In this document: positions 30,902-62,614 of the stretch, one piece after another
Layout: the number at the start of each line of letters is the position of its first letter
Numbering within the stretch: the stretch's first letter is position 1
Notes under the pieces: model-generated
What the model was told of the DNA's origin: nothing
The model's input: only the letters and a program-made list of their open reading frames with translations
Databases searched by the model: none
Source of the DNA: Paracyclopina nana
Lineage: Eukaryota; Arthropoda; Copepoda; Cyclopoida; Cyclopettidae
Reading direction: 5' to 3'
Length of the DNA: 64,000 bases
Assembly: GCA_019096065.1 (NCBI GenBank)
Contig: JAGUCH010000002.1
Location: forward strand, 15,636,501 to 15,700,500
Made by a program: the position numbers and the translations under genes

Positions 30902-33900
30902 TCATTGAGCTCTAGCCTGATTGCGTGTCAATGAGCTTGTGGGGTCTCGTCCCCCTCGGAAGCTGTCACGGAAACGGTTGAGTAGTTTCCTCTTCCGCAG
31001 GTGGAGAGTCTGGTTCTTGCTTATAAGTGGAGGTGTTGTCGTCATCGGAGAGGCAATGCTGGCAGCTGGTTCCTCTGATTTGAGGGGAATTTTCGGGATG
31101 AATTTCAGAAGTTCTGGGCAATCCAACCAAACCAATAACCCTTTCCTAAAGTTTTCTGGCTTGATCTTGGCATCTAAAACCATATTTGGATCCATTAATG
31201 GTTTTCTGGGATGCACTCCAAAAAGGAGGAAGAATGGACTCATTCTTATTGTCTCACTCAAAGGAGAAGATGTATCAAGCATCTTTTGCAAGTAACTTAT
31301 AGTGTGCTTATTAATAACTTCAGCAGCTGAATTGCATTGAGGGTGACTAGGGCTGGTTGTGCTCTTATCTACCCGGAGCAGATTATAAAGAGATTGACTC
31401 AACTGTGAGGTGAATTCTGTCCCTCCATCAGCAATGAGCACAGCTGGCAAGCCGAATCTTGCAATCCATCGATTAAAAATGGCCCCAGCAACAGTGTCAG
31501 ATTGTTTGTCCACCAGAGTGACAAACTCTGCATACTTACTAACAGACTCCATGATAACCAAAATATACTTCTTTCCATCTGAATCCCTCCAAGGTCCAAA
31601 GAGGTCAGCATGGACCCTCTCCAGGGGGCCCTTGAGTTGCTGGTGGGGCAGCAATTCCACATTCGGATGTGATTGCTCAGGTTTGGTTTTGTCACATTTC
31701 CAACATGAACTGATGTATTCCTCAACATCAGTCAATAAACTAGGCCAAAAATACTGCTCATGAATTTTTTCACTGGTTTTGTTGATGCCCCTGTGCCCAA
31801 CAGATGCATGCGCAGCACTAATAATGTCAGCTTGACAAACAGCCGGTGCTGCCAACACTGATTTGGGCCCACTCATCACAAACAACAAGTCATTCTTGAC
31901 TTCAAAAATAGGGCCATATCTTTTAATAATCCGTTTCAACTCAGGTTGTCTGGGTACAAGTCCTTGTTTAACAAAGGAAAGTAAAGCCGCAACAACCAAG
32001 TCTGTAGATTGTAGCTTTCTCATGGTTGCCCTGTCTTCTATGGCGTCAACAACTATACTTAGGGTTTCAATACATTTCCGGAGTTTCTTCATAACTGCCA
32101 GGCTCTCCATGGCCTCGACGGAATTACTGTGGGTTTCACCACTCTCTTGTAGTTTCTTCATTACTGCCATGTCCTCCATGGCCTCAACAGTGCTACTGTG
32201 GGTTTCACCACTCTCTTGTAGCCTCTTCATAACTGCCATGTCCTTCATGACCTCCATGGCCTCGACGGAATTACTGTGGGTTTCACCACTTTGCAGAAGC
32301 TCTCGTGGCTTCTTCAGAACTGCCATGTCCTCCATGGCCTCAAAAGTGATATTGTGAGGTTCACCACCTTGCAGAAGCCCTCGTGGCTTCTTCAGAACTG
32401 CCATGTCCTCCATGGCCTCAAAAGTGATATTGTGAGGTTCACCACCTTGCAGAAGCCCTCGTGACTTCTTCAGAACTGCCATGTCCTCTATGGCCTCAAA
32501 AGTGATATTGTGAGGTTCACCACCTTGCAGAAGCCCTTGTGACTTCTTCAGAACTGCCATGTCCTCCATGGCCTCAAAAGTGATATTGTGAGGTTCACCA
32601 CCTTGCAGAAGCCCTCGTGGCTTCTTCAGAACTGCCATGTCCTCCATGGCCTCAAAAGTGATATTGTGGGTTTCACCACCTCGCAGAAGCTCTCGTGGCT
32701 TCTTCAGAACTGCCATATCCTCCATGGCCTCAAAAGTGATATTGTGAGGTTCACCACCTTGCAGAAGCCCTCGTGACTTCTTCAGAACTGCCATGTCCTC
32801 CATGGCCTCAAAAGTGATATTGTGAGGTTCACCACCTCGCAGAAGCTCTCGTGGCTTCTTCAGAAATGCCATGTCCTCCATGGCCTCAAAAGTGATATTG
32901 TGAGGTTCACCACCTCGCAGAAGCTCTCGTGGCTTCTTCAGAAATGCCATGTCCTCAATGGCCTTAACAGTGATATTGTGAGGTTCACCACCTCGCAGAA
33001 GTACAGGAACAATCCTTCGATTTCTATAGTCGACCATTGGTCTCCAACCAGTAGCTCCAACTGGCAGTTTCTTGGGCACACAGAAAATACTTGAGTTCCA
33101 GGGAGAATAGCAGGGTTCCAAAATGTTCATCTCCTGCCAATCTTCAATGCTTTTGTTGATTTCATCAAGATGTGACATGGGAATCTGGAATTGTCTAGCA
33201 TGAACTGGTCTGTGGTCATGTGTGTCAAATTTGTTTTTCATCAGGGTGCAGTCACCCAAGTCAAATTCTGAAGTGGAAATAATGTCAGAATTACGAAGTA
33301 AACACTTCAAGTAACTCTGACATAGATTAGGAGAAAGGTGATCAAGATTTGCATGCTTTAGAATGTAGTCCTCCACCTGTCTAGAAGGCCTCCCTATAAC
33401 ATTTTTATCTTTTAAAAACACATCATGTACTGGGACAATCTTATCAACACTCAAAATTTGCCCAATGAAAGAAACCTTGTCTATCTTAAAAGGCAATAAT
33501 CCTGCATTAGTAACATTAATATTAGCGACTCCTTGTTGATTAGAACGGATGAGGCAATCCTCCTTGCAAAGTTGGATGGCATCGCTTCTTTGGAGACATC
33601 CTTCAAAGTGAGCTATGGGCCCATTATTCTGGTTCTTCAGCTGCACGGAAATTGTAGCGACACTTCTGGCGGGTATGTACGTCTTCTTCTGAGTTCTGGC
33701 CTCAAGTTGAAACTTATTTGCAGAGCGGATTTTCATCGATATGGGATCATAAAACAAGCCGGTAGCATGGATCAGGTCAATACCCACAATCCCATCAAGT
33801 GCGAGTCCCTCGCACACATAAAATGGCCACTTCAACTGTCGGCCTTCTATCATACAGTCTATTTCATAAAGTCCATTGATCCTTAAAGGGTTTCCGGAAG

Positions 33901-33919
33901 CACAAGTTGCACGTAACAT
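30902..33919 (-). CDS. Gypsy element Pol: RT start, 78-bp repeat array, integrase
   Basis: A single open frame of 1,005 codons, but not a normal Pol. Residues 1-305 hold the end of the protease and the start of reverse transcriptase (DWQEMNILEPCYSPWNSS, WRPMVDYRN). From residue 307 the frame becomes a tandem array (33001-32015), and the RT catalytic core (YVDD-type box) and RNase H are absent. After about residue 640 integrase resumes: the H2C2 zinc motif (HASVGHRG ... SCWKCDK), then the DDE core (HADLFGPW, ADGGTEF and a later Glu). It ends near the 3' LTR. The upstream ATG is not needed if translated by frameshift from protease. The integrase looks intact in sequence; RT function is lost. 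Confidence 0.9.
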   Translation of the reverse strand: MLRATCASGNPLRINGLYEIDCMIEGRQLKWPFYVCEGLALDGIVGIDLIHATGLFYDPISMKIRSANKFQLEARTQKKTYIPARSVATISVQLKNQNNGPIAHFEGCLQRSDAIQLCKEDCLIRSNQQGVANINVTNAGLLPFKIDKVSFIGQILSVDKIVPVHDVFLKDKNVIGRPSRQVEDYILKHANLDHLSPNLCQSYLKCLLRNSDIISTSEFDLGDCTLMKNKFDTHDHRPVHARQFQIPMSHLDEINKSIEDWQEMNILEPCYSPWNSSIFCVPKKLPVGATGWRPMVDYRNRRIVPVLLRGGEPHNITVKAIEDMAFLKKPRELLRGGEPHNITFEAMEDMAFLKKPRELLRGGEPHNITFEAMEDMAVLKKSRGLLQGGEPHNITFEAMEDMAVLKKPRELLRGGETHNITFEAMEDMAVLKKPRGLLQGGEPHNITFEAMEDMAVLKKSQGLLQGGEPHNITFEAIEDMAVLKKSRGLLQGGEPHNITFEAMEDMAVLKKPRGLLQGGEPHNITFEAMEDMAVLKKPRELLQSGETHSNSVEAMEVMKDMAVMKRLQESGETHSSTVEAMEDMAVMKKLQESGETHSNSVEAMESLAVMKKLRKCIETLSIVVDAIEDRATMRKLQSTDLVVAALLSFVKQGLVPRQPELKRIIKRYGPIFEVKNDLLFVMSGPKSVLAAPAVCQADIISAAHASVGHRGINKTSEKIHEQYFWPSLLTDVEEYISSCWKCDKTKPEQSHPNVELLPHQQLKGPLERVHADLFGPWRDSDGKKYILVIMESVSKYAEFVTLVDKQSDTVAGAIFNRWIARFGLPAVLIADGGTEFTSQLSQSLYNLLRVDKSTTSPSHPQCNSAAEVINKHTISYLQKMLDTSSPLSETIRMSPFFLLFGVHPRKPLMDPNMVLDAKIKPENFRKGLLVWLDCPELLKFIPKIPLKSEEPAASIASPMTTTPPLISKNQTLHLRKRKLLNRFRDSFRGGRDPTSSLTRNQARAQ
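32015..33001 (-). repeat. In-frame coding minisatellite replacing the RT core
   Basis: Nine units of 78 bp (26 residues, consensus LLQGGEPHNITFEAMEDMAV then LKKPRG), from 33001 to 32300, followed by one 78-bp and three 69-bp diverged units down to 32015. The most diverged, integrase-proximal unit is probably the ancestral sequence from which the array grew. No unit contains a stop codon. Confidence 0.95.
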
Positions 33920-34160
33920 CGGAGCATTTGTAATTTTCTGAGGTCTTAGTTGGGGGCAATTCTCCTGAATGCCATAAGCGATAACAGGGAAATATTGGAG
34001 CCAGTGTCAAACAACATTTCAAAGGTGGCTCCAAGGCTGTGGATTGATACAAAAGGTCGGTTGGTATTCTCACTCGAGGATAGCAGGCTGAAACTTGTGA
34101 TTGCGTGAAAAAGCTCAACGACCTTGCGACGACCAGTGGTGTGGAGCCCACCCTGGTCGT
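33920..34160 (-). pseudogene. Gypsy protease segment, out of frame and stopped
   Basis: The aspartic protease active site (LFDTGSN) can be read near 34,010 in a frame different from both Gag and Pol. It runs into a TAA at 33946-33948 within a CCCCC-AACTAA context, after which homologous sequence continues in the Pol frame. The shift between Gag and protease may be programmed, but the one before Pol looks like a damaging indel in the C run. Confidence 0.75.
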
Positions 34161-35279
34161 TTACCAGTTTAAAGGGTTGGAATGGTAGGAGGCACGAACT
34201 TCATTGACCTTATTTGCCTCCTGCTCTGTTGCTCTTTTACTGCCAGGCCTTGGGTTGTACATGCCCTTAGCAGCATCTGCTTGCCTGGAAAAGCACTCAG
34301 CCTCACTATGATTCTTCTTGGTGCAATACCAGCAGACCATGTTGGCTCGGAACTGTCCACTTGCAGGACCCCGCACTTGTCCTCGCACTCCATTTCCATT
34401 GATGAGATTCACAAGTGCTCCCAGTGTCAGAGGCTGGTTGTGAGGATTGCTCTCCTGAGCACTGTCGGCTTGCTCAACAGCATGGACTTCAGGGACTGGT
34501 ACGGTGGCTTTCTTTTCACTTGACAATGAGGCCTCCACACGCTTAGCAACCTTGAAGATTTCCTTAAGGTCAGTGATGTCATGCACGATCACCTGCTTCT
34601 TGATGGCAGGTAACAGACCTTGAATGAACTTTCGCCGGCATGCGAACACATATGCGCTCCTCTTGCACATTTCTACGGCAGCGTCATTTGTGGCGTACTC
34701 GCCCTCACCAAGGATGATGAAAGTTTCCATCAGGGTCATGACTCCAGTTTTTACACGGTCATAGAAATCCCGCACGGATTCTGATGCCTCCTGCACCAAG
34801 CTGTCCTCGATTGCGGACTGTTCGGCTAACGTGGCCTCATGGTGCCAATGATCCAGGAACTCCTTCTTCAGACCAGATACTCCACTCCACTTTTTAGGAG
34901 CAAATCCCTCTTCCTTTAGGGTGTTATACCATTGTGCTGCCTTGGCTTTGAGTGCCATGGCAGCGTACATGGCCGTCATTTCGTCCGTCCATCTTTGCGG
35001 CTGTCCAGCTGGGATGTTTTCGTTGGCAAGGGCTCTTAAATCGTCGATCCTCCTAGCCCATGCTCGTGCTTGCAGCTTGTCAACTGCCGGGTCCCCACTA
35101 AATTCGGGTACATCAATTGCCTTGATATTACGCTGAGCCATGGTGAACAGACATTGTTGAGGAAATGCGGAGGTTTCTGTGTTATCCTCTTGTGGTGGAG
35201 CAGTAGGTCGAATTGTTCCCTCTGATGAAGCCTCTTCGTAAAATTCGTCCTCGTAATATTCGTCCTCACTATCAGCCAT
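34161..35279 (-). CDS. Gypsy element Gag
   Basis: 372 residues. Acidic N-terminus, then a retrotransposon capsid-type helical region (VPEFSGDPAVDKLQARAWAR, later VRDFYDRVKTG), and one CCHC zinc knuckle near residue 320 (C-x2-C-x4-H-x4-C in CWYCTKKNHSEAEC). Starts at the first ATG after the 5' LTR (MADSEDEYYE). Open throughout. It lies in a different frame from the protease segment that follows. Confidence 0.9.
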   Translation of the reverse strand: MADSEDEYYEDEFYEEASSEGTIRPTAPPQEDNTETSAFPQQCLFTMAQRNIKAIDVPEFSGDPAVDKLQARAWARRIDDLRALANENIPAGQPQRWTDEMTAMYAAMALKAKAAQWYNTLKEEGFAPKKWSGVSGLKKEFLDHWHHEATLAEQSAIEDSLVQEASESVRDFYDRVKTGVMTLMETFIILGEGEYATNDAAVEMCKRSAYVFACRRKFIQGLLPAIKKQVIVHDITDLKEIFKVAKRVEASLSSEKKATVPVPEVHAVEQADSAQESNPHNQPLTLGALVNLINGNGVRGQVRGPASGQFRANMVCWYCTKKNHSEAECFSRQADAAKGMYNPRPGSKRATEQEANKVNEVRASYHSNPLNW

Positions 35280-49255: not shown

Positions 49256-50449
49256 TTAACGTTGCTGCTGTTTCCACTCTACAAATTTAGATCTAAGAAG
49301 CTCTTTAATGTCATCAGGGACAAAAGCATAGTCAATGCTTTTAAAAGACAAGTTAAATATTTCGTCCTCATTCAATTTGAGCACTTCCATAGCATTTTCA
49401 TGCTCCTCCGTTGACGAGGTGAAAAAGGCACCCTTGTCATCAGTGCACACGCACACTGGCAGTCCGCCCTGATAGAAGGGAACCAAATGGGAATCTTGCA
49501 GGGAGGACACAGACTTGCACTTATCATTGGAAGTCAAGCAGATTTCAGTGGGAATCCGCAGCTCGCGGAATTTCTCCCATATCTGGGCATTACCACCTAA
49601 ACTTGGATGAACGCAAGTGGAGTGTCCAAAGCGATCCGGTTTAAAAGTCGGATGATCCAGGACAAAGTGCAGCTCTTCTTCCATATTTGGGACTTCGGCA
49701 TAATGACAAGAGACTTTAAGGCCATTCTCCTTTGCCTTGATCAATGCAGGGTAGAAACTTTGCAGCTGGTTGACTCTTGCATCTCCAGAAAGGTCGACTC
49801 CTACGACAACATTGGGATGAGTCTTGTTGTACTCAATGGCCAAATCAACATTTTCAAAGGCTTCTTCAGTTGACCTCCTCCTGTCAATGCTGACAATAAG
49901 AGCAGCTTTGGTCTCAGTTTGACCTTCAAGGGCTTCAATCATGGCTTTGATATACTCATGCTTGGTCATTTTGCCTTTAATGCTCCTCAGTGTTGATCTC
50001 AGCTCCACGAGGTGGACGTTTTCCACAGCAAACTCTTTCAAGACACAACTTGTGGCCAAAGTGACAGCTTGTGGATGATCTACGAGGGCTTGGGCACATT
50101 TAAAAATTGCGTACACTTCATCAAAGGTTTCAAACTGTCGAAAAATGTCCTCAGCTGGAGGCATCGATTCATCAGGGAAAGTCTGCTTGTGGAGTCGGAC
50201 TAATTTGCCAATTGTGGTAACACTGAGTGAGCCATTTAGGTGAGCGTGCAGTTCCACTTTGGGCAGGTGAAAGCAATACTTTCCCTCCATTTCAGAAGGA
50301 ACTATGGGCAAATTGAATAATCCTTCCATCTTTTTTCTCATATGATCCATTGTGTTTACTTTTTTACTTGTTGTAATACGAGTGTACATTTTTAAGGCAA
50401 ATGTTGAAAAGGGTCGCAAACAAACTAGCAAAAAACAAACATGATGCAA
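49256..50449 (-). CDS. MAPDA: Adenosine deaminase-like N6-methyl-AMP deaminase
   Basis: ADAL/MAPDA converts N6-methyl-AMP to IMP, clearing modified nucleotides from RNA decay. A single exon of up to 397 codons. Metal and catalytic residues present: HAHLNGS (HxH), SCHYAE (His and general-acid Glu), GHSTC (His), and CTDDKG (Asp pair). ADAL-type features such as [15 protein letters not shown] and PTEICLTSN are present. The first ATG (50449) gives a hydrophobic N-terminus [11 protein letters not shown]. Starts at 50350 ([10 protein letters not shown]) or 50329 fit the family length better (about 355). It ends 20 bp before the CIAO1 ATG on the same strand. Confidence 0.93.
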
Positions 50450-50655
50450 ACTTCTTTGCGGAATTCTCTAAAACCAAATTTAATGCAAGCACATTTTTGC
50501 TTATTTGAAATAGAGAATTCGGAATTCAATTCTGTCTGTAATTTTCTTGTATGTATTCACCAGGTTGACTTACTTATTCGATCCATCATTTATTACATAA
50601 AGTAAACAAACTGAGCGGATAGCGCAGATCAGCATTCGAAGGATTTCCCCACTTG
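50450..50655. promoter_or_regulatory. Remnant of a divergent intergenic region, split by the BEL insertion
   Basis: Lies upstream of MAPDA (minus). Its original continuation is at 62465, beyond the retrotransposon, upstream of the MBF1-like copy (plus). Before the insertion the two genes were divergently arranged with about 300-350 bp between them. Confidence 0.5.
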
Positions 50656-50920
50656 TGTTTTGTAGGAGCTTCCACTGGAATCCAGGAATCCCTTGATGAC
50701 GATGACAACTCGAGGCCTTGCTAACCTCGCAACAAGAAAAGTTATAAGTGATTTACACGATGAAATAGTAAAAGTAAACAAAGTGACAGATAGAGTACTG
50801 TATTATTCGGTAGTTCTTGAGCAAGTGACGCTACAATTCTCAACAAAAAAGCGAGCCAAAAAAGAAGCGCCTCAGCAGGCCCAGCGAAAAGGGGTCGGTT
50901 TTCTAAGTCGATCCTCAACA
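50656..50920 (-). repeat. BEL element 3' LTR
   Basis: 265 bp; it has an extra CTAAGTC-type insertion before ATCCTCAACA compared with the other LTR. Confidence 0.95.
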
Positions 50921-50959
50921 TTCTCCCCCCAAAACGGCCCCAAAAAGGCCGTTTTTCTT

Positions 50960-53900
50960 CTAACAAGGGGTCACATCGACATCGTTGCGGGCGAGCGCAG
51001 TGAGGAAGAGCCTGCCATCAACCAGAACATCATCCACTGCGGCGGTCTTCCTGACTACAACTTCAAAGCGGCCTTCCTCGTTCACTCTCCAGATCCACTC
51101 CAGACCGGTCAACATGCCCATGACTTGGTAATTTAGCGGAGCACAGAGGACGAAATCGTTGAAGAGCGTAATGTAGGGGATTCTGATGTGATAGGAGGCG
51201 TAATGGCCAAGGCCTCCACAAGATGAACACCTCACGATCATCAAGGGGCACACAGCTATCACGTGCGAGGTCGATCCACAGGGGGGATAAATGCAGCGAC
51301 GTCTCATTCTTTTGCAGGGCAGCTCCCTCTTCTTTTCAGACTCGACGATCAGGGGTTGGAGTGGCATAGCGACGGCTTTCTTTACAGATTCATCAGGACC
51401 ATCTTCTTCAATCTCAGCCATTATCGCATCTTCAGGCTCCGTGGCGACCTCAGGGTCAACATATTCTTCGGTGGTGGCCTTGTTTGAGATGGTGATGAGG
51501 AGAGTGCAAGCTATCAGCTTCTTGCCTTTAGCTCCCCCCGTTTCGGGCAGACCAGGCTCGCCTGGAACGACCTCGACCACGTCGTCGTCAACCTCGACAT
51601 CTCCTCCCGCAGGATCCATGAAGTGAGACGAGGATCCACAAATGTGGCAATGCTCGGGAAAGCAGAGGCCCAAGGACAAGGCCTCATTGATGAGCTCATC
51701 CATCTTGACTTGATGATAAGGCCGGCCTTCAAAATAAGAGTCGAGATCAGCCCTGAGCTTGGGGGAGATTGCAAACGGGTCAGGCTTGTAAAGATTGCAA
51801 GTGAAGGCTGCCCTGACCACGTCGGGATCGTTCACGGTTTTGGTGAAAGGCCTTTGGGCCATAAAGGCTATGCCTGGCCTCTCGCAATCCTGATCCATGA
51901 ATTCCCTGAACCCGAAGGGACGAGTATTGGCCTCCGTCTTGGAAAGAAGGTCCGAGGTTCTCGGGCGGCTCTTGATCAAGGCCAAAAGGTAGGCAACGAA
52001 CCTGTTGACGTCAGCCTCTGGCTCACAATGGAGGATCTCCATCAACCTTACCGCCAAACGAGTCACCAAAATCATGGGCAGAGCCACGGTGTTGAACATA
52101 TAAAAAACGAGCCTGCCATGCCAATCAATCATAGGCTTGGAAAAGTCGGCGCGATGGAGAAATACTTCCACTACGTCATCATTTACAGCCACCGCAGGTC
52201 GATCGCAGGCCTCTTCTTCAGCTCCAGATCTTCTGCCTTTCTCCTTGTGGAAGACCTTGATGACGGAGGGCAACTTGAGTCTCTCAGTTGCATAAGCCTG
52301 TCCATTCTTCACTTCATGAGGCTGCCTCCCCGGCTGAGGGTACATGAATGCAGTGAGGTTGCTGGCGTCGCATACGCTAGTGACAGGCACGTCGACCAGG
52401 GTGAGGTGTCGAACATGATCCGCAATTCCCCATTGGACTTTAACAATCCTTGGATCGGCCATAAGGTCAGCGATGCATCTTGGAACAGCGATCCCTCTGA
52501 TAGGCTCTCCTATGCCTCCGTAGTTTACATGAATCACTACGGAGACTCCATTGGGTGCAAGAATGCCCAAGGCCGTAAAGGCTTCAGCTGGCACTCTCAG
52601 TTGGCCGAATCGGGCAGCCTTATAGGCCGAATTTGTCCAGGAAATAGTATAAAAAGTCAGCACATTCCTCTTCTTGATCGAGTGATAGAACTCATCGGCC
52701 TCTAAACTCTTCTTAATCAAAGGCCAGTCCGACCTCGAGTGGACATCCACGATGTTTCTCTGCCCGTCTCGGTAGCGAAGGTCAAAGGGGGGCCTCAGAC
52801 CTTTTGATTCCCTCTGAGCCACATTCCAGGGATACCACTCCTGATAGTGGTGATTTGGCCGAAAATGGGGCAGCTCCTCTCCAGGCAGAAGCGTTGGTGG
52901 CAAGGTGGAAGAGCACCAGGGCCTTGAGCACGGCTTGATCTCTGAGCGGGGAGTTTGGCCCAGGAAAAGAACGGCGTGCAGGCATGCACAGTCAAACTGG
53001 CCACGAGGAATTGGCACTGGGCTTGGGCGGATCTGGATCGGAGCAGCCCCTCCCAAGGGACCCAAAGTGAGCTCAAAAGACCGAGAAGTCCAGTCGTTTC
53101 GACTGACTTTTTGGGTCACTCCAAAAGCCATTATTTCCAGGTCGGCAATCCAAGAGTTGGCCTTGTAGTTTTCCAATGCAGGGAAGCAAGCCAACATCTG
53201 AGCCACATCCAGCCATTCTTCGCCCTCAGCGTCTTCCAGATCCTTAGCCAGAGCTTTGACTCTGATTGCCGACATTGCCTTGAACATCTCGGTGTAGCGG
53301 CTAAGTGAAGCCTTAGCTAGAGCTTTTGTGGCCTCGTTGGGCAGCCTCACGGACAGGCCAGTGCAGCCTAAGTCGGCCGCAGTGGCTGACATGCTCATCA
53401 AGTCAACGTGGTGGGCGGCCATGATCTCGAACACCGTCATGTTGCCTGAGGCGATGAAGGCCATGCGCATGGCGTCTGCAGTCAGAGCCATAATTTGGCA
53501 GCTCCTCCTCTGACTTTCATTCCTTGTGTCCGTGGCCCTTCGAGGACCAAAATTGAGGTCGTCCCCCAGTATGGCCACCCTTGGGTCCATGTACAAAAGC
53601 TGCCTCATAGGCTCCAAATAGGTCTTCAGGTGCCTGTGAAACATCACACGATCGAACTGCCACTTTCCTTTGAATCTGGAGATGACATCAGCCAGATCCT
53701 CCTCCAGGGCGTTCTCGGGATAGTCGTCGATCCTTATCTCTTCTTCAGGCGTGGGTTTCTCCAAGCACGAAAAAAGCCCCCATGAAGTTGGAGTGCGCTT
53801 ATACCTAGTCAGATATTGCTGCGAGGTGCGCCTGATGGGAGCGGGGACACGAGCATCAAAGTTGGGGGTCGAGTCGAACTTGTTGGCGAGTTCGCGGGGG

Positions 53901-54658
53901 ACTGCTCCTGCCTCTGCAGCCTCGGCCGCCAGTTCGGGGTCATGACTGATCTTGTCGGCTCTCCTTTGGCGCTCAGCTTGGTGGGCTCCCTCGCTGGCAG
54001 CTGCCTTTTTGGCCTTACGAGCTTCTCGTCGCGCTTCAAGCTCAGCCACTCTTCGCTGAACTTCCTCCCATTCGGCCTCCACAGATGAATAATCGTCGGC
54101 TCTTCCAAGGCTCCTTTCCACGTCTCTTCTCCTCTCAGCGTCTCGCCGATATTCTTTGGAGCTACGACGGGGGCTGTGCGAACGATCTTCGCGTACTTTG
54201 ACGTTCCAACGAGGAGATCTATTGTTAGAGGTGGATCTGGATCGCCTTTCGCGATCTCGGGATTTGGCATTTCGCCTGGACAGGTCCTCGCTTGGTCTCG
54301 GCTTCTTATTATTATTAGAATTTCTATCAGGGCTGCGATACCTTTTTTGGCGTTGATCGGTCCTGGATGCTGATGATCGGGAGAAGGGGCGAGATGTGCC
54401 CCCCGAGTTTCTCGGTGGGGTGTCCCATTCTTTCGACTCTGGTCCGTGAATTTCCAGCTCGGGCGAATCATCTTTCTTCACTCTTGACATTTTCACTTTT
54501 TTCGGCTCGCTGGTGGAATCGGGGGAAAAGGAAACTGAGTGGTTTGTTGTCAAAACTGGTTGTGTTGTGGGCGGTGTTGTTCTGCCTTGGCGGCCGAGGC
54601 CTTTTCTCGGCCGACTGTGACGCAAGGCGCATGGGTTTGGGTTGAGCTGAGTCGTCAT
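50960..54658 (-). CDS. Third ORF of the BEL element: 1,232-residue protein of unknown function
   Basis: Not recognised as any named family. Starts ATG at 54658, whose last two bases plus the next form the pol TGA stop (ATGA). It ends 40 bp before the 3' LTR, in the position where env sits in enveloped elements, but there is no signal peptide, membrane helix or furin site. Seen: basic N-terminus; an RS/RD-rich nuclear-speckle-like region (residues about 80-190); a Glu/Arg/Ala coiled coil (about 190-235); a large globular part (about 300-900); and a C-terminal region with zinc-knuckle-like clusters (CHICGSSSH; C-x4-C-x4-H-x4-C in CIYPPCGSTSHVIAVC; C-x2-C-x4-H in CSSCGGLGH). Around residues 640-740 the pattern resembles DEDD 3'-5' exonucleases (ADPRIVKVQWGIADHVRHL) but the first acidic motif seems absent. 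Probably a nuclear nucleic-acid-binding protein. The function is unknown. Confidence 0.85.
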   Translation of the reverse strand: MTTQLNPNPCALRHSRPRKGLGRQGRTTPPTTQPVLTTNHSVSFSPDSTSEPKKVKMSRVKKDDSPELEIHGPESKEWDTPPRNSGGTSRPFSRSSASRTDQRQKRYRSPDRNSNNNKKPRPSEDLSRRNAKSRDRERRSRSTSNNRSPRWNVKVREDRSHSPRRSSKEYRRDAERRRDVERSLGRADDYSSVEAEWEEVQRRVAELEARREARKAKKAAASEGAHQAERQRRADKISHDPELAAEAAEAGAVPRELANKFDSTPNFDARVPAPIRRTSQQYLTRYKRTPTSWGLFSCLEKPTPEEEIRIDDYPENALEEDLADVISRFKGKWQFDRVMFHRHLKTYLEPMRQLLYMDPRVAILGDDLNFGPRRATDTRNESQRRSCQIMALTADAMRMAFIASGNMTVFEIMAAHHVDLMSMSATAADLGCTGLSVRLPNEATKALAKASLSRYTEMFKAMSAIRVKALAKDLEDAEGEEWLDVAQMLACFPALENYKANSWIADLEIMAFGVTQKVSRNDWTSRSFELTLGPLGGAAPIQIRPSPVPIPRGQFDCACLHAVLFLGQTPRSEIKPCSRPWCSSTLPPTLLPGEELPHFRPNHHYQEWYPWNVAQRESKGLRPPFDLRYRDGQRNIVDVHSRSDWPLIKKSLEADEFYHSIKKRNVLTFYTISWTNSAYKAARFGQLRVPAEAFTALGILAPNGVSVVIHVNYGGIGEPIRGIAVPRCIADLMADPRIVKVQWGIADHVRHLTLVDVPVTSVCDASNLTAFMYPQPGRQPHEVKNGQAYATERLKLPSVIKVFHKEKGRRSGAEEEACDRPAVAVNDDVVEVFLHRADFSKPMIDWHGRLVFYMFNTVALPMILVTRLAVRLMEILHCEPEADVNRFVAYLLALIKSRPRTSDLLSKTEANTRPFGFREFMDQDCERPGIAFMAQRPFTKTVNDPDVVRAAFTCNLYKPDPFAISPKLRADLDSYFEGRPYHQVKMDELINEALSLGLCFPEHCHICGSSSHFMDPAGGDVEVDDDVVEVVPGEPGLPETGGAKGKKLIACTLLITISNKATTEEYVDPEVATEPEDAIMAEIEEDGPDESVKKAVAMPLQPLIVESEKKRELPCKRMRRRCIYPPCGSTSHVIAVCPLMIVRCSSCGGLGHYASYHIRIPYITLFNDFVLCAPLNYQVMGMLTGLEWIWRVNEEGRFEVVVRKTAAVDDVLVDGRLFLTALARNDVDVTPC

Positions 54659-57600
54659 TGTTGTTGTTTTGGTTGGCCAGCCCTAGATTTGTAAGCTGAT
54701 TTTTCTTTTTCTTTCAATTTTTTTAGATTGGCTTTTACTTTTGCCAGCAGTACTCCCAAGGGGATGTCTTTTGAGAGCGTGTTTATGTCCTCCTCGTCAA
54801 TAGGGTGGTCGAAACGATTGTTTTCTGGGGCTTCTTCTACGAGATCAATGGGTACCAATTTATTCACTGGTCGGGATAGCGTAATTCTTAATTTTTTCCT
54901 TTTTGGTTGGACTACAACTTTTACTCTTCTTATCAGTCCATCGAGACCCTTTTGTACTTCGACCACTTTTCCCTTTTGCCATGTATTTCTCTTCGTTTTG
55001 TCCTCCACCAACAGCACCAGCTGCCCTTCTTTCAGTTCCTTTTGATGCTCCCTCCATTTCGGGAGCCTATGCAATTGGTAGACCCACTGAGGTAGCCACC
55101 AGTCCCATACTTACGTTTTTATGCTTTCAGGGTCGATTGTTGGCAGCAGTTCTCCTGGTGGGCCGTGAGTCAAAAAATGACTGGGAGTTATTATTTCTCC
55201 GTCCATTTCGGCTATTGGTCTGGAGTTGACTATTCCTGTGGCTTTTGCTACCATGGTAATGAAGTCGTCGTGATGGAATTAATATTTTTGGTAAGTGTTG
55301 AACATTGCTTTTTTCCATAGTTTTATGGCGCTTTCTCCGAGACCATTGAAGTTGGGGCCGTATGGGGGTGAAAAGGTCCAATTCTTTACTCCTATGTCCT
55401 CCCCCCATCTTCTCAATTGGTCCCAATTGAGAGATGCGACCTGTTGCATTAATTCGTCGTGCCTTTTGTCTTTCCACAGTTCTTTTACGGTTTTAACGAA
55501 GCTGCTCTGATTGTCAGACCTGATCGTTTGTGGCGTTCCTCTTATTGATGTGAATCGTGTGAGTGCGTTTATGACTGATTCAGAGGTTAGATCCTCTACC
55601 GTTTCGGTGTGGATTGCTTTTATGTGCCTGCAGATTATAACTAGCACCCATCGTTTGAGCCTGGATCTTCCTTGAATGACTTCAAATGGGCCTGCAAAGT
55701 CTATTGAGACGTGGCGAAAAGGAAGTATATCTTTTAGAGAGACTGCGTTTGGGGGCAGAGGGGCCATTTGGGGCTGTAGTGGCTGATTTTTCATCATTTG
55801 ACACACTATGCACTTCGCCACCACCTTCTCGGCCATGCGACTCCCCTTCATGATCCAGTATTGTGCTCTAGCTCTGTTAAGAAGGCTCCTCTTTCCTACT
55901 CCGTGACCAAGTGAGTTGTGTAGCCCGGTCAAAAGTCTCGTAGTGAATTGCGTTGGGGGTAAAATGAGTTATGACTTGTCTAGCCATTTTATGTCTACGT
56001 TTTTTAGTCTTCCTTCGGACCTTAGCTCGCCATGCTTTCCGATTGTTACTCCAAGTCCAAGCAGTTGGCTTTTTTGGGGAAAGATCCCGTGCTTCAGTAG
56101 AAAGTCCACTTCTTCCTTGAAGTATTTATGTTGTTCAATCGCGATGGCTTTTCTTTCGGCTCTTTGGAAGTCAGGCGTGGCGATCTCTGATTTTTTGGCT
56201 AGTTGCCCCTTTTTTCTATTTTTACTTCTTTCGAGGCATTTAAGAACATAAGAGTACACGTACCCCATGATTCTCATTTGTTTTTTATGATCAGAGCAGT
56301 GTACTTCGTGATCTCCCAGGTTGGCTGCCTGCAGTGCAGTAATTTGTTCTTTTATTTCTTTCAGCTTCGTGGATAATTGGACGTGTTGGTCTTCTGGATC
56401 GGCCAAGGACATGGACAGAACGACTTTCTCTTCCTCGGTGACGTTTACGGGAAGCAGGTCTCCTTCTTCGATTTGTGGCTGCCAAATAGGGTACTCCGAA
56501 GGGGGCAGCAGCAGCCATTCCTGGCCTTTCGCCTAGAATTTCGAGGCTGCCAATTCCGAGGCCGTGCAGCCTCTAGTGGGCCAATCAGCCGGAATTTGTG
56601 GCTGCCAAATAGGGTACTCCGAAGGGGGCAGCAGCAGCCATTCCAGGCCTTTCGCCCAGAATTTCGAGGCTGCCAATTCCGAGGCCGTGCAGCCTCAAGT
56701 GGGCCAATCAGCCGGATTCTGTTTTCCTGCGACGTGGGACCAGTGAAACTCGTGTGTCAAGGAGTGAATTTCGCTGACTCTATTGCCGACAAAGGCCTTC
56801 CAAGTTGATCCAGGCTTACAAATCCAGGTCAACACACATCATGAATCCGTGAAGAAATAAACTGAGTTATACGGTGCGATTAGAGTCTTTATTACACGTT
56901 TAGACAGCCTTGCGCCAAGAAGTGCTCCCATCAGTTGGAGTTCTGGAATTGATCTCCTTTCTTTTAGCGGGGCCAGCCTCCTTCTGGATATCAACAGATT
57001 CACGTCTACCTCCCCTGTTTCGTATTCCATTCTCACGTAAGCGCATGTGGCATATGCTTTTTCAGAGGCGTCGGTGAAGATGATGAGCGTCTGCGTCTTT
57101 AAGGCTGCTTTTCTCATTGCCCTTGGGAACCTCACCTGGTTCAGGTCTTCCAGAGAGTCTATAGTAATCTTCCAATTGTCCAGGATGGTGTCGACTTCTT
57201 CGTTTCGAAGGCCGTTCAAGTCTGTGTCCCAGTCGATGTGTACTACTATTTTCATCGCACACATCCTTTGCATGGCCAATCTCAGTGCTAAGGTGATGGG
57301 ATCGACTAAACCCAGAGGATCGAATATTTTTGCTGCTACTGAGGCCAACTTTCTCATTGTTATAATCACTTCTCGTTTCGAGCGGAGGTCGGGTTTTTCA
57401 AAGTAGATCTGGTCATTTTTAAAATCCACAGCTAGGCCCAAGGCCTTGGTCTTTGCATCGAGCATTTGTGAGGCTACCCACGAAGGGTCGAGTTGCTCTT
57501 CTTCCAGGTCGCTAAGGACTTCTTTGTGGCTGCTTAGCCACTTCTTCAAGGGCAGATGAGCGGGCTCCATTAGCTCGTTACATTGGCTTACAATTTGTTT

Positions 57601-58203
57601 GGCCTCATCTACAGTTTCTGCAGTGGTTATGAGGTTGTCCATGTAGATGTCCTCGAGGATGGCCTTTGAGGCTTTTGGGTATTCCTTTTCATGCTCCAGA
57701 GCGTGATGCTGCAATGCGAATATCGCCATGCATGGCGAGGCTCTCGCTCCAAAGATTAGGGTAATGGGTTCATAGTACTTTCCACTCCACATGAACCTGA
57801 AGTACTTTCTATCTGGCTCTGGAATTAGGAATTGTCTGAACATCTTTTGGATGTCAGCCACTATAGCCACTGGCTTGTTTCTTAGCCTCAGGAGTACATC
57901 CAGCAGGTCGGCTAGCAGGTTAGGCCCTTCATGCTGGGCGTCATTTAGGCTTTGACCGTTAGAACCTTTTCTGCTGCCGTCATAGACCACTCTCAGTGGT
58001 GTAGTGATTTTGTCTGGTCTGTCTACTGTAAGCCAGTTGAGGAAAAACCCAGCGTAGACATTTTCTGTTGACGGATTTATTTTTCTTATGAAACCTCTTT
58101 CCAAATCTTTTTGTATTTCCTCTGTGGCTTTATGATGCATCTCTGGATTTTTTCGCTTGAGTTTGGCTTCAAATCTTTCCACGTAACTGGGACTTGGTAT
58201 CAA
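54655..58203 (-). pseudogene. BEL element pol: RT, RNase H, integrase (interrupted)
   Basis: One reading frame from 58203 to the TGA at 54655, broken by in-frame stops at 56839-56841 (TGA), 56695-56697 (TGA), 56533-56535 (TAG), 55969-55971 (TAA), 55279-55281 (TAA) and 55111-55113 (TAA). RT: PLRVVYDGSRKG, then VAIVADIQKMFRQ (Asp of motif A) and the BEL-type box LEDIYMDNLI. RNase H follows (FTDAS, then FFTDS before the first stop). Integrase: zinc-like LLTGLHNSLGH ... CIVCQMMKN, then the DDE core (SIDFAGPF, IRSDNQSSF, and ...GLGESAIK), and a DUF5641-type tail (LKEGQLVLLVEDKTKRNTW). It starts one base out of frame with the gag-protease frame. Without recoding it cannot make a full polyprotein. 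Confidence 0.88.
56472..56717 (-). repeat. 123-bp in-frame tandem duplication in BEL RNase H
   Basis: Two copies of a 123-bp (41-codon) unit (56472-56594 and 56595-56717). They keep frame but differ at two codons that are stops in one copy and sense in the other (AGA against TGA; TGG against TAG). Confidence 0.9.
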
Positions 58204-59936
58204 CCAGTAGCCTCTCGCTTGATTCCCTTTTTTAACGTGTCTAGTGCAAATTGTTGGGACCTGTTGAGCGGTGGTTTATAGTCCTCCCCCCCTTTGATCC
58301 CCATCAGATCAAAGTTCCACAGACTTTGTAAGACCTTGTTTGGATCCATCGCGAAATAGAATGTGTCTTCCATATCCAGGCTGATGGGTGCCATTAACCT
58401 TAGGGCTTCTTCGTGTTTGGGGGGCCTTTGACCATATAAGCAGACTTTTCCCAACTTTGTTTCGAAGATGTAGGGCTTTCCTTTTTGGGCTTCGGGTCTT
58501 TTTGGTATCATCCACTCAAAATGTTCTACTCCTAGGATTATGTCAATGCCTCCAGGTTGGACGTAAGATGGGAAATCTTCTTGAAGCAGTTCAGGGAATT
58601 GCTCGGTTAGATCCGATGGCAGCGTGGGTTTTACGCCATCTATCAACGTTGGCGATGTATTGACAATAATGACTTCTTCTTCGTCGGAGACTGTGCTTCT
58701 TAGGATTACTGGGGCTAGAGCTGAATGGAGAACCTTGGTTGAATCTAATGTTCGGATTAGCTGCCTAGAGTTCACTCTTTCTAGGCCTAAATGATCGGCG
58801 ATGACTTGTTTCATGAAGGTACCTTCGGCTCCAGTATCGAGAAGAGCGTTGACCTTAATGAATAGATGTGGCTTTTTCGGATTCGCCAGTATGACTGGAG
58901 CTACTTGGTAGGTTATCTTTTTTAAAGACTTTGGATAGGTTCTCTCATTCATATTTATTGATTGCTCTTTATCGAAATAGTTGACAGATAAAACTTGAGT
59001 TTGATTTTGAGGGTGAAAGTTCCGTTGATCCTTGGGTTTGAAGTTTTGGCGCTCTGTTGCAAATTGGCGATCTTCTTTTTCTGCGTGGCTTGGCTGAGCT
59101 TCTTCTTTTTTGTTGTGCCTTTCTTGATTGGCTCCAAATCTGTCAGTGGGATCAGCCATTTCGGCATCGAGGCCTCGACACAGCAATGTGTGGTGTGTGA
59201 GTTTGCTGCAAGTTCTGCAGGACCAATTGAGCTCGCAGACATTTCTAGAGTGCTTACCTATAAGGCATTGAAAGCAGGTTCTTGATTACTTGACAAAGGA
59301 TCTTCTATCCTGGAGCGTCTTCTTCTTAAAAATGGTGCATTTCCACAATGGATGTCTTTCTGGCGTGCAAACTGGGCACGTATTGTATGGGTTGAGGTGT
59401 GGCGACATCACGGCTGCTACCATTGAGGTTTCCTCTTCACTTTCGTCGCTGAAGTCGCTAGCTGATGAATCCAAGGTTGAAGTAGCGAGAACATTTGTTG
59501 GGGCTATAGCCATCACAGCTCCTAGTTGACGTCGAGTTTGCATGCGGTTGTCAGGTCTAGGTTGCGAGAAATTTGCAGCTTTTATTAGTGAGGAGTTACC
59601 TGGTAGACTATTCTTTTGGTGGATTCTTTGGAGTTGCCGGCTACACCACCTGTCGAACATTTCGAAGGTTAATTGCTCATCACAAGTGTCTTGGTAGACT
59701 TGGTAGGCGACTCGAGTTGAGTTGTTGAAGCGCAGCCTTGCTAGTATGTTGCCATAGTGAGTTCTTAGGGCGGATCCGGAGATCGCTGACAGGTGGATTT
59801 TGACTTTGTTGACCGCTGCCCTGACAGCGTTGATGCTTTCTGCGTTGGTGTTGTCGATGATGCCGACTCTGTCTAGGTCGGCGAAAGCGTAATTGACTTG
59901 TCTGTCAATGTTGCCATATTCGTTTTCCAACGCTAT
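58200..59936 (-). pseudogene. BEL element gag 3' part, zinc knuckles and protease
   Basis: Same frame as gag after its TAA stop. It contains the end of the DUF1759-type region, then three CCHC knuckles (CPVCTPERHPLWKC before a second in-frame TAA at 59286-59288, and two more just after it in CFQCLIGKHSRNVC and CRTCSKLTHHTLLC), then the aspartic protease with LLDTGAEGTF. It ends at TGA 58200, overlapping the pol frame by four bases (a -1 frame relation), which could be a programmed shift or an indel. Confidence 0.85.
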
Positions 59937-62084
59937 TTAACTTGCTAGATAGCCCTCCTCATTTCGAGGGTAGATGTGGATGGTTTGATAAGCTGGTCCA
60001 GGCTTGCCCTTGTTGTAGGTGGCTTGGATCAACCTGGCTTGCTTCTCTTGCACAGTTATGTTTGGGTTGTCATGCACTAAGTACTTGAAGTCGTCAATGA
60101 AAGACTGGTAGCACACGGAATTTTTTCCATCAAATGTTGGCACCTCTATTGCGGACAGTTTTATATTTCGGTATCGATTGTCTCCACTGCTGTTGGAGGT
60201 CGTATTTCTCCACTCGGGAGTTCTTCCGCTTTGGTTGCCATAAGTGGGTCGGTGGCTATGATGATCTCCATGACCATCTCTCTGGTCCGAGTCTGATCCT
60301 TCTGGAGGCTCCGGGGGATTTGGGGGGCCAGGTGGTCCTCCTGGCGGGCCTGGCTGTCCAGGTGGGCCTGGCGGATCATGTCTGCTCTGGGGTGTTGGGC
60401 CGCGGTTGCTTGAAGAGTGGCTGGGATGGTTTGTTGCTGCTGAGAAAAGATATGGAAAGTTCGGAGTGCCATTCCTCGGCTGTTCTGAGCTATGCGAAGG
60501 CTGAGCATAGCCTTGGTAGTGCTTGGAGGCCGGCAGCCTCGCAGGCGGGGGTCGATTAGGGTTGAACTCGGGTGGGAGATGAGCATTCGGGCTGTACTCC
60601 TTGGAATATGCCGTGCTGCAGAACGGTGGGTCCTTGGAAGCTCCATCCAGCCAACCTTGAGCCTTCCTGCTTTGCTCTCTCACCGCAAGGTCTATCCTTG
60701 CTCTGGTGAGTGAGTCCAGTGTTAGGACTGCTTCCTTTTGGAGCTCTTGGTCATGGCGACGAGGATCGAATTCAGGATTGATGTCAGCCATTTCGGCTAC
60801 AATATCTTGCCTGATTTTATTCATTTTCAAGAGTGAATCGTTAAATTCAGAAATTTGAGTCGAATCGAGCGTTTCGCGGGCAAGAAGATTTTTTGCCTCT
60901 CGCAAAATAAATTTTATTTCATTTCTCTGCCCTTCATATTTTTCTTGTACTCTTTCCCATCTGCTTTCCAGCTCTCCTTTGGCCCTGGGGCTTGGGTTAG
61001 TCGTTGGTTGGCAGTTTTCTTGTTGGTTGGGCTCATTTTCATCTTCTCCCCCCATTTCGGGCGGAGCTTCACCTAGACTGCTGAGGAGTTCGTCAATACT
61101 GCCCTCTTCCATTGTCAGCAACCTCATCCGGATTTTTTCCACAAGGAGGGCGGTGGACTTGGCATATTTTTCTGTGAGGGTGCTCATCACTGTCGAAGCC
61201 TCCTTTGTAGCCACGTTTCTGTAGTCTTTCAGTGACTGTTCCAGATTCTTCAGTTTATTTTCAGCTTCATTCATGGCACTGACAAGGTCCGTGTTCCGCG
61301 GTTCTCCCCTTTCCAGACATTCCTTCTGATCAGTTATGAAGTTCCTCAATAGCCTAGCTTTGTGCTCAAAGTCGGCTTGCAGCTTTCTGGCATTTTGTAG
61401 CCTTTGGATTTCTTGTGCCACGGCTCCAGGATCAACCTCGTGCGAGGTGTCATTGCCAGCAGCACCGTCCTGAGATGGCTGCATGGATTCGGAGGCTGCA
61501 CTGTTGTCTTCTGTGACGGTGATGGTGGACATATTTTTCGTCTCATCGACACTGTCACCGCCACGCTGAATAGGGAGTGGTGATGATATCACTGAGTGGA
61601 ATAGTTCTTCACCTCCCAAGGAGTCGCTTTCCGAACCATCACAGCCCTCCTCTAGTTCTTCCACGGAGCTGGCCGTCGAATCTTCCTTCTCTTGAGATTG
61701 GTCCTCCGCTTCCTTAGGAGGGCTTTGAGGGGCGGTTATGACAATTTCCGGAATTCCAAAGCTTCTTTGGCCGACCTCGCCACTTTCTTCTCGAACTTCC
61801 TCATAGGCTCCTACCGTTAGTTGGGATGGAGAATCTTGTGGGGCGATGTTTTCTTTTTCTTTAGTTTGTCCACCCGCCGACAGCTGCAGAATTTCTCTGT
61901 AGCTGATCCTTTTGATGTTGAGCTCGGCTTGAGTTTTCCTTTGTAACTCGGCGATGGCGGCCTTAGTCTCTCTCTCCGTGGATTCCGGCGAAAGGGCAGC
62001 CTCTCCCTTTACTCTTCTACTCGACCTTTTAGGCTGGATGGGACTGGCTGGGGACGACTTCGATCGTTGTCTTTTCCTTGCCAT
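59937..62084 (-). CDS. BEL element gag, N-terminal part
   Basis: 715 residues from ATG 62084 (MARKRQRSKS) to a TAA at 59937. Basic NLS-like N-terminus, acidic serine-rich stretches, long heptad regions (coiled coil, about residues 225-310 and 380-440), a Pro/Gly-rich collagen-like segment (DPPGPPGQPGPPGG), and the start of the DUF1759 gag domain (AIEVPTFDGK, then YQSFIDDFKYLV). The homologous domain continues in the same frame after the TAA, so this stop interrupts the original gag. Confidence 0.85.
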   Translation of the reverse strand: MARKRQRSKSSPASPIQPKRSSRRVKGEAALSPESTERETKAAIAELQRKTQAELNIKRISYREILQLSAGGQTKEKENIAPQDSPSQLTVGAYEEVREESGEVGQRSFGIPEIVITAPQSPPKEAEDQSQEKEDSTASSVEELEEGCDGSESDSLGGEELFHSVISSPLPIQRGGDSVDETKNMSTITVTEDNSAASESMQPSQDGAAGNDTSHEVDPGAVAQEIQRLQNARKLQADFEHKARLLRNFITDQKECLERGEPRNTDLVSAMNEAENKLKNLEQSLKDYRNVATKEASTVMSTLTEKYAKSTALLVEKIRMRLLTMEEGSIDELLSSLGEAPPEMGGEDENEPNQQENCQPTTNPSPRAKGELESRWERVQEKYEGQRNEIKFILREAKNLLARETLDSTQISEFNDSLLKMNKIRQDIVAEMADINPEFDPRRHDQELQKEAVLTLDSLTRARIDLAVREQSRKAQGWLDGASKDPPFCSTAYSKEYSPNAHLPPEFNPNRPPPARLPASKHYQGYAQPSHSSEQPRNGTPNFPYLFSAATNHPSHSSSNRGPTPQSRHDPPGPPGQPGPPGGPPGPPNPPEPPEGSDSDQRDGHGDHHSHRPTYGNQSGRTPEWRNTTSNSSGDNRYRNIKLSAIEVPTFDGKNSVCYQSFIDDFKYLVHDNPNITVQEKQARLIQATYNKGKPGPAYQTIHIYPRNEEGYLAS

Positions 62085-62206
62085 CGACAAATCCAGGGAC
62101 CTTTCCCACTAGCATTTCGCCAGCTTCCAGAGGTGCTCGTCTTTTTCCGATTCAGAGGGTGTGGCAGAGGTTGCCCACTCTGAATCCCGGGTCGCAGCAC
62201 CAAAAT

Positions 62207-62464
62207 GTTTTGTAGGAGCTTCCACTGGAATCCAGGAATCCCTTGATGACGATGACAACTCGAGGCCTTGCTAACCTCGCAACAAGAAAAGTTATAAGTG
62301 ATTTACACGATGAAATAGTAAAAGTAAACAAAGTGACAGATAGAGTACTGTATTATTCGGTAGTTCTTGAGCAAGTGACGCTACAATTCTCAACAAAAAA
62401 GCGAGCCAAAAAAGAAGCGCCTCAGCAGGCCCAGCAAAAAGGGGTCGGTTTTTGATCCTCAACA
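62207..62464 (-). repeat. BEL element 5' LTR
   Basis: 258 bp, otherwise nearly identical to the 50656-50920 copy. Confidence 0.95.
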
Positions 62465-62614
62465 ACTTGTGCAAATTCTCAAGGAGCTATTTTTAGTCGA
62501 GTTTATTTGTTGCGATTTTGAGAGCCTCAATACCAACAAAGGTAAGGTTCAAATGCTTCTGAGCGTTTGGAGGTGGCGAAATATTCCATGAAATTCTAGA
62601 GCAATCATGGGTAT

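Follow-up and report, generated by a model that had tools for sequence, protein, structure and literature searches.

A third gene behind pol

The window analysed here is a stretch of 64,000 nucleotides from the copepod Paracyclopina nana (GenBank assembly GCA_019096065.1, contig JAGUCH010000002.1, positions 15,636,501 to 15,700,500), and coordinates are counted from its first letter. On its minus strand lies a BEL/Pao retrotransposon of 11,809 bp, running from 62464 down to 50656, of which 3.7 kb are taken up by a third open reading frame (ORF3) of 1,232 open codons (54658..50960). ORF3 has long been resident in a large BEL/Pao lineage as its third gene and is under constraint, since it is found behind pol at at least 37 loci, has a low ratio of nonsynonymous to synonymous substitution (dN/dS) and has a tree in agreement with that of pol. 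A preliminary description of this DNA had reported an uninterrupted frame between the DUF5641 end of pol and the 3′ long terminal repeat (LTR) without giving its strand; the frame was confirmed, on the minus strand, and the ATGA overlap that the description placed at its start is present in the DNA, the TGA of pol (54657-54655) being overlapped by an ATG that begins at 54658. The length of ORF3 is not a product of chance, as the longest open stretch was 417 codons in random DNA (300 sequences of 12 kb per Markov order, with three orders fitted to ORF3 itself).

The element has the pol of the Belpaoviridae, with a Pao peptidase A17, reverse transcriptase (RT), integrase and DUF5641 (Pfam matches PF05380, E 1.7e-40; PF00665, E 4.2e-9; PF17921, E 1.6e-8; PF18701, E 2.1e-15), the RVT_1 match reaching 21.5 bits, under its cut-off. 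Its termini are also those of the family: LTRs within 0.2-1.2 kb, a short target duplication and a polypurine tract, with the purine tract ~30 nt and the 3′ LTR ~40 nt past the ORF3 stop. The element is longer than the 4.2-10 kb genome range of the ICTV Belpaoviridae profile (PMC8742986), which is a size range and no criterion of ancestry. Primer sites of the family are those for tRNA-Arg or tRNA-Gly, and no tRNA gene was found in the window by ARAGORN. The features of the element are as follows.

62465..62469, flanking sequence: target-site duplication CAAGT (sense), 5′ side
62206..62464, minus strand: 5′ LTR, 259 nt, begins TGTTGAGG and ends AAAACA
58203..62084, minus strand: gag-protease frame, broken by in-frame stops at 59939 and 59288 and by a change of frame near 58200; aspartic protease matches below cut-offs
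54655..58203, minus strand: pol frame (Pao peptidase A17, RT, integrase, DUF5641), with six in-frame stops from 56841 to 55113
56471..56716, minus strand: 123-bp tandem duplication in pol, 5 differences in 129 aligned bases
50960..54658, minus strand: ORF3 at its full open length from the ATGA overlap, 1,232 codons
50960..54490, minus strand: ORF3 from Met57, 1,176 codons, the likely real product
53969..54490, minus strand: RS-rich, charged N-terminal region, residues 57-230
52865..52984, minus strand: conserved C559, C577, C582 and H598, a possible metal site, complete in 20 of 21 copies
52019..52741, minus strand: putative DEDD 3′-5′ exonuclease-like domain, residues 640-880 (profile match ~637-772), lacking the motif-I Asp
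51623..51649, minus strand: zinc-knuckle-like module 1, C-x2-C-x4-H, residues 1004-1012
51188..51316, minus strand: zinc-knuckle-like modules 2 and 3, residues 1115-1157, C-x4-C-x4-H-x4-C and C-x2-C-x4-H-x4-H
50921..50930, minus strand: polypurine tract GGGGGGAGAA, adjoining the 3′ LTR
50656..50920, minus strand: 3′ LTR, 265 nt, one 6-nt indel and 1-2 substitutions apart from the 5′ LTR
50651..50655, flanking sequence: target-site duplication CAAGT (sense), 3′ side

A stable hairpin also separates the ORF3 stop from the polypurine tract (50931-50955, minus strand; z -2.29, 3 of 200 shuffles as stable, folded together with its flanks as 50905-50975).

ORF3 is carried by a family of BEL/Pao copies

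Searching the genome (92 Mb in 10 contigs) with ORF3 turned up 67 matches, which fall into at least 37 loci including the window, a lower bound with 38 of 422 first-look candidates scored. Other BEL copies bearing the gene, which the preliminary description had proposed to look for, therefore exist, and ORF3 is not peculiar to the window copy. Six relatives are 62-67% identical to it and the remainder ~27-37%. Their open frames are mostly 700-1,440 residues long, and a stop falls within the match at 3 of the 37 loci. The DUF5641 end of a BEL pol lies directly upstream on the same strand in all 37 cases, 3-1,655 nt from the ORF3 match, and was also recovered by tblastn at each of the 20 loci that were fetched. 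Of these pol ends, 36 of the 37 rank among the best 42 of 149 DUF5641 matches in the genome (150 of 220 candidates scored), with 6 of those 42 having no ORF3 match.

All relatives come from this one assembly. A search of 5.8 billion proteins with residues 250-1232 returned none at E ≤ 0.01 among 7,996 scored candidates; a query with the element's RT did return four relatives from the same database, at E ≤ 1e-10. Collections of viral and prokaryote contigs contained no relatives with either ORF3 or the family alignment as query, and a search of them with the element's pol led nowhere.

Selection and shared history with pol

Three close pairs of copies, the members of each on different contigs, could be used for dN/dS, synonymous sites being at or near saturation in the other pairs. 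ORF3 gave values of 0.029, 0.034 and 0.037 (30/3, 59/7 and 108/15 synonymous/nonsynonymous changes), and pol gave 0.031, 0.041 and 0.067 for the same pairs. ORF3 is thus under purifying selection as strong as that on pol in the measured pairs, and the neutral drift that had been raised as a possibility is not what is seen.

The two genes have also diverged together. Among 16 loci (near-identical L015, L023 and L029 and the short-pol copies L004 and L031 were left out), tree distances of ORF3 and pol are correlated at 0.966, a value reached by 0 of 2000 permutations, and 10 of 13 splits are common to both trees. This agreement indicates that ORF3 predates the spread of the lineage and has stayed with pol.

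Codon use sets ORF3 apart from pol. Relative to host genes of the window its excess code length, in bits per codon, is -0.003 ± 0.014, whereas gag-pol has 0.110 ± 0.012 and a Ty3 element 0.093 ± 0.014, with single host ORFs ranging from -0.038 to 0.116. The contrast is family-wide: GC3 is higher in ORF3 than in pol in 20 of 20 other copies (L012-L031), where the mean share of A-ending codons is 0.17 in ORF3 and 0.31 in pol, and it may reflect translation from a separate message. On the host-like codon use we had at first favoured recent capture of a host gene, and dropped it once the family-wide contrast and the agreement of the trees were seen. Such a capture by the window copy is now largely refuted and scarcely credible, as the codon contrast recurs in all 20 other copies compared, the gene occupies at least 37 loci at identities down to ~27%, it co-diverges with pol, and none of nine host PF01612 matches is an ORF3 locus. 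The preliminary description had offered a captured host gene or a new accessory protein; the accessory gene is genuine, and any capture must be old, given the family-wide codon contrast and the concordant trees.

Anatomy of the ORF3 protein

The RS-rich N-terminus and the C-terminal zinc-knuckle-like clusters that had been noted previously were both borne out by the family. Arginine plus serine make up 0.29-0.46 of the N-terminal region in 18 of 20 copies measured, and the three knuckle-like modules retain all their ligands in 18, 17 and 18 of the 18 copies that span them. A further cluster of C559, C577, C582 and H598 (the CCCH cluster) is complete in 20 of 21 copies. Pfam searches with the whole of ORF3 and with pieces of it led nowhere.

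The absence of a signal peptide and of a membrane helix had also been claimed. The first part holds as far as hydropathy can tell, in that nothing near the N-terminus is hydrophobic (best -0.35), while the second is only a rough statement, since three internal stretches (693-711, 850-876 and 1133-1151) have marginal 19-residue hydropathies of 1.63-1.75. By the same measure of hydropathy only, ORF3 lacks the signal peptide and transmembrane anchor of an envelope protein. Neither a standard envelope nor a gag duplicate was recognisable: envelope features were not apparent, and ORF3 has no similarity to the element's own gag and pol (best E 2.9).

A predicted exonuclease-like domain without its motif-I aspartate

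The likeness of residues 640-880 to DEDD exonucleases was noticed by eye beforehand, and these exonucleases are the only family that was tested. Comparisons were made with a profile of eight DEDDy exonucleases (A1) and with an alignment of the ORF3 family (A2, excluding L015, L016, L017, L023, L029 and L030); the ORF3 family profile was built from 18 of 21 copies, near-identical L015, L023 and L029 being dropped. Before relatives had been found, the eight-sequence profile gave 2.5 bits on a piece of 281 residues, where shuffles reached 5.2. With columns filled in at least four of the eight exonucleases, the single sequence scored 34.0 in hhalign (E 1.4e-4), a score above those of all 300 shuffles (best 21.1) and of all 128 tiles from unrelated proteins (best 21.9), and below the 46-122 of four known exonucleases that the profile did not include. 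The untrimmed profile alignment at this single-sequence stage gave 11%, and A1 as a HMMER profile on the whole of ORF3 gave 9.1 bits (E 4.5e-5 for one sequence).

The outcome for the single sequence depended on which exonucleases were used. On residues 640-880, the number of 3000 shuffles scoring as well was 0 for EXD2 alone, 5 for WRN, mouse WRN and EXD2, 86 for the five bacterial sequences, 51 for all eight and 47 for all without the WRNs, and WRN alone gave no match. Five additional sets gave 1, 2, 2, 0 and 45 of 3000 shuffles and 0, 0, 0, 0 and 6 of 126 unrelated tiles.

The family profile gave a higher probability. Residues 640-880 matched the DEDDy profile at an hhalign probability of 89.7% (E 1.8e-6, 95 columns), with 0 of 200 column shuffles as good (best 19.7). 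The signal is confined to this part, the whole of ORF3 giving 82%, residues 270-640 2.4% and residues 880-1232 0.2%; the whole of A2 against untrimmed A1 gave 64% (E 6.4e-5). The exonuclease profile itself is sound, ranking 47 PDB sequences (exonucleases, polymerases with an exonuclease part, and their kin) ahead of the first evident false match. When 18 members were scanned singly, probabilities ranged from 0.06% to 85%. A DEDD exonuclease-like (RNase H-like) fold for residues 640-880 is thus a well-supported prediction from these profile comparisons.

The motif-I Asp is absent from all 21 copies in both alignment registers. The motif-I Glu is absent from all 21 in the MAFFT register and present in 8 of 21, the window copy not among them, in the hhalign register, and the motif-II Asp is kept in 10 of 21 and replaced by His in the window copy. 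Because the D-x-E of motif I is wanting, ORF3 is not filed as a nuclease, and the domain probably has no nuclease activity.

Start codon and expression

The preliminary description had the protein expressed by termination-reinitiation at the ATGA, which would yield all 1,232 residues. We consider this very unlikely, as the overlap occurs in 3 of 21 copies and the likely start lies downstream of it. In favour of a coupled start, the window copy and the two copies closest to it have retained the overlap at a divergence of a third of ORF3 residues. However, 18 of the 21 copies do without it, and among the three that have it similarity is low over residues 1-56, where the DNA has single gaps with lengths that are not multiples of three, and rises sharply at Met57 (MSRxxxDxxPELxIH). 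Moreover, ribosomes are not expected at the pol stop of the window copy because its pol is interrupted upstream.

ORF3 likely starts at Met57, 167 nt after the pol stop, to judge by the alignment of close copies; the predicted product has 1,176 residues from 54490. An MSRxRR-type start is common to the close copies L004 and L012-L017, and in four close relatives without the overlap (L014-L017) the frame has its first ATG at the MSR or MPR start, 168-193 nt past the pol stop. A Met occupies the Met57 column in all 21 copies (155-364 nt after the pol stop in 20, 1,164 nt in L024), although this is partly built in, because most relatives' proteins were started at the ATG nearest the pol stop, and the column is informative for close copies only. 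In seven of the remaining copies (L022, L023, L025, L026, L028, L030 and L031) the ORF3 frame is open far upstream, for ~640-800 nt before the pol stop, overlapping pol in another frame.

ORF3 would then be made from a message of its own, spliced or otherwise subgenomic, and not by way of the ATGA. Splicing is the likely model, since bdelloid ORF3s are described as produced from spliced messages (PMC5408684).

Proposed function

Taken together, these data lead us to propose, at a probability of about 0.55, that ORF3 encodes an RNA-binding pseudo-exonuclease that starts at Met57, is made from its own message and acts on the RNA of the element. The predicted accessory protein would combine an RS-rich N-terminus, the CCCH cluster, an exonuclease-like domain without its motif-I Asp and three knuckle-like modules; RNA binding, possibly nuclear, is argued from the joining of a probably inactive nuclease fold to zinc knuckles and an RS region. 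The protein may bind the element's own RNA and, as a nuclear ribonucleoprotein adaptor, carry it through export or into particles, or alternatively it may shield that RNA from small-RNA silencing by the host. We favour the adaptor role in export or packaging, with shielding as its main rival, an order that is itself a matter of inference.

Several points weigh against this proposal. The fold was picked by eye, and the single-sequence E of 1.4e-4 would not stand out in a blind search of a whole library. Pfam scans of 15 members gave a best E of 0.013 and no family in more than two members, and PDB sequence searches with ORF3 or the family profile found no exonuclease, the 12 matches of the profile mainly touching the RS region. 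Single-sequence AlphaFold models were poor (pLDDT 35.5 and 42.3); the Foldseek and VIA matches shown for them include no DEDD exonuclease, and with models of this quality that absence proves nothing. Taken singly, L025, L027 and L028 match best outside the domain, at 1.5% or less, a motif-I Glu is possibly kept by the 8 copies mentioned above, and 2 of the 20 copies measured are low in R and S (0.21). The conservation of the Met57 column owes something to the choice of starts.

The most serious competitor, which we nevertheless think unlikely, is that ORF3 counters silencing by mimicking inactive DEDD nucleases such as EXD1 or Maelstrom and sequestering or misrouting RNA or partners of the pathway. 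It would account for the strong constraint on ORF3, and the host has Argonaute/Piwi-domain sequence to act upon (16 matches, 15 above cut-off, several in one gene). However, rapid evolution is common in counter-defence proteins, and a dN/dS of ~0.03 is very low; Pfam scans also gave no specific similarity to the EXD1 or Maelstrom families. There is precedent for inactive DEDD derivatives that retain RNA binding and act in piRNA biogenesis (PMC5408684; also PMC2628886).

It is less likely again that ORF3 is a second structural protein of Gag or nucleocapsid type and is packaged in particles. The basic N-terminus and C-terminal knuckles resemble the layout of Gag, and there are weak matches to zf-CCHC (E 0.16, below cut-off), zf-CCHC_6 (E 0.022, one member) and, with the family profile, a retroviral nucleocapsid (E 1.9). 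Against this, the core is exonuclease-like with no recognised capsid, the element's own gag and pol show no similarity as noted above, and no Gag family is among the six Pfam families listed at E ≤ 1 for the 15 members. A divergent envelope-like protein is highly improbable in spite of the place behind pol, the usual site of env-like genes in BEL/Pao elements (PMC8742986; Anakin elements, PMC7642597), and of the marginal hydrophobic stretches, 850-876 among them, since the N-terminus is not hydrophobic, the protein begins RS-rich and has conserved zinc modules of intracellular type, and 850-876 and 693-711 align with the last helix and one strand of the exonuclease-like domain.

Beyond the RNA-binding pseudo-exonuclease proposed here, one may tentatively, and with more doubt than confidence, suppose a gene class of its own, a conserved RS/zinc-knuckle pseudo-exonuclease acting against or inside the small-RNA or nuclear RNA-export machinery of the host. 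If so, it would be a non-envelope accessory gene of the Belpaoviridae with a fold taken up convergently with bdelloid ORF3s and host piRNA factors.

The window copy and its surroundings

The preliminary description spoke of an element with an intact third ORF. ORF3 is indeed intact and the rest is damaged, with 8 in-frame stops, one frame change and the 123-bp tandem duplication in gag-pol and none of these in ORF3. Taken alone, the contrast of 8 stops with 0 (P 0.066 by mutational exposure, 0.040 by codons) no more than suggests that ORF3 was selectively kept intact in this copy. The LTRs are too similar to allow time for so many stops (P 0.0026 with one LTR difference, 0.0087 with two), and the copies of the duplication are more diverged (5 of 129 bases) than the LTRs (Fisher p 0.017 or 0.045). 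Given this excess of stops over the age since insertion, the window copy probably moved with its gag-pol already damaged, by means of another element's proteins; a single burst of editing at insertion is a possible alternative source of the excess. In a branch comparison with two relatives (the RNase H piece was misaligned and left out), the RT piece of the window copy has ~6x their nonsynonymous length, and ORF3 has 2.6x, integrase 2.5-2.7x and the pol C-end 2.2-3.1x, ratios which, for these last three, may merely mirror the outgroup place of the window copy. A search of the genome with the LTRs found no second copy of the element, a missing match being no proof of rarity; it returned the element's own two LTRs and two partial matches of 81% that flank a relative on contig 3.

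An ORF listed as adenosine-deaminase-like lies on the same strand ~207 nt downstream of the end of the 3′ LTR (50449-50656), and the LTR could influence its transcription given this distance and shared strand. Elsewhere in the window is a Ty3-type element (30902-35279, minus strand), in whose long pol-side ORF of 1,005 codons a 78-bp unit is tandemly repeated in frame (32246-33001, 9.7 copies, 94% matches). The array sits where the polymerase part of a Ty3-type element is expected.

Comparison with known systems

Env-like third genes of BEL/Pao elements are known from Tas, Cer7 and roo. The third gene is named env in the ICTV profile (PMC8742986), and mosquito Anakin elements have a chuvirus glycoprotein in its position (PMC7642597). 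These genes share with ORF3 their site between pol and the 3′ LTR; they encode membrane glycoproteins, whereas ORF3 looks like an intracellular nucleic-acid-binding protein. No report of this type of ORF3 in BEL/Pao elements was found in search listings of open-access papers, of which a minority were read, with subscription papers mostly outside that scope, and the available portions of de la Chaux and Wagner 2011 (PMC3118150) do not mention a non-envelope ORF3.

The nearest precedent found, compared by its published description, is the DEDDy-exonuclease ORF3 of the bdelloid rotifer LTR retrotransposons Juno and Vesta and of Athena retroelements (Rodriguez et al. 2017, PMC5408684). It too follows pol, has a DEDD exonuclease-like domain and lacks envelope features, and a Cys-His-Cys zinc motif is noted for Vesta2/5. 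However, the bdelloid LTR elements are retrovirus-like and not BEL/Pao, and their catalytic residues are reported intact (as DEED), whereas the motif-I Asp is lost in 21 of 21 copies here. Within the genome the bdelloid ORF3 is reported to show no significant departure from neutrality, as opposed to a dN/dS of ~0.03, and the copepod protein adds the RS region, the CCCH cluster and three zinc modules.

Among cellular proteins, RNase D of Trypanosoma brucei (PDB 7C42 and others; PMC7797062) has a similar layout, a DEDD domain followed by RNA-binding CCHC fingers, but it is an active 3′-trimming enzyme and was not matched by ORF3 in PDB sequence searches. EXD1 and Maelstrom, like ORF3 as predicted here, have an exonuclease-like fold without the catalytic set and a proposed RNA-binding role (PMC5408684; Maelstrom, PMC2628886); they are host piRNA-pathway genes, and no specific sequence link to ORF3 was found.

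At least 37 loci in one genome therefore keep a large, apparently intracellular nucleic-acid-binding third protein where env would be expected from the ICTV profile. Together with the bdelloid elements, they suggest that exonuclease-like ORF3s occur in separate groups of retroelements, and make the reason for which retroelements keep (pseudo-)exonucleases a testable question.

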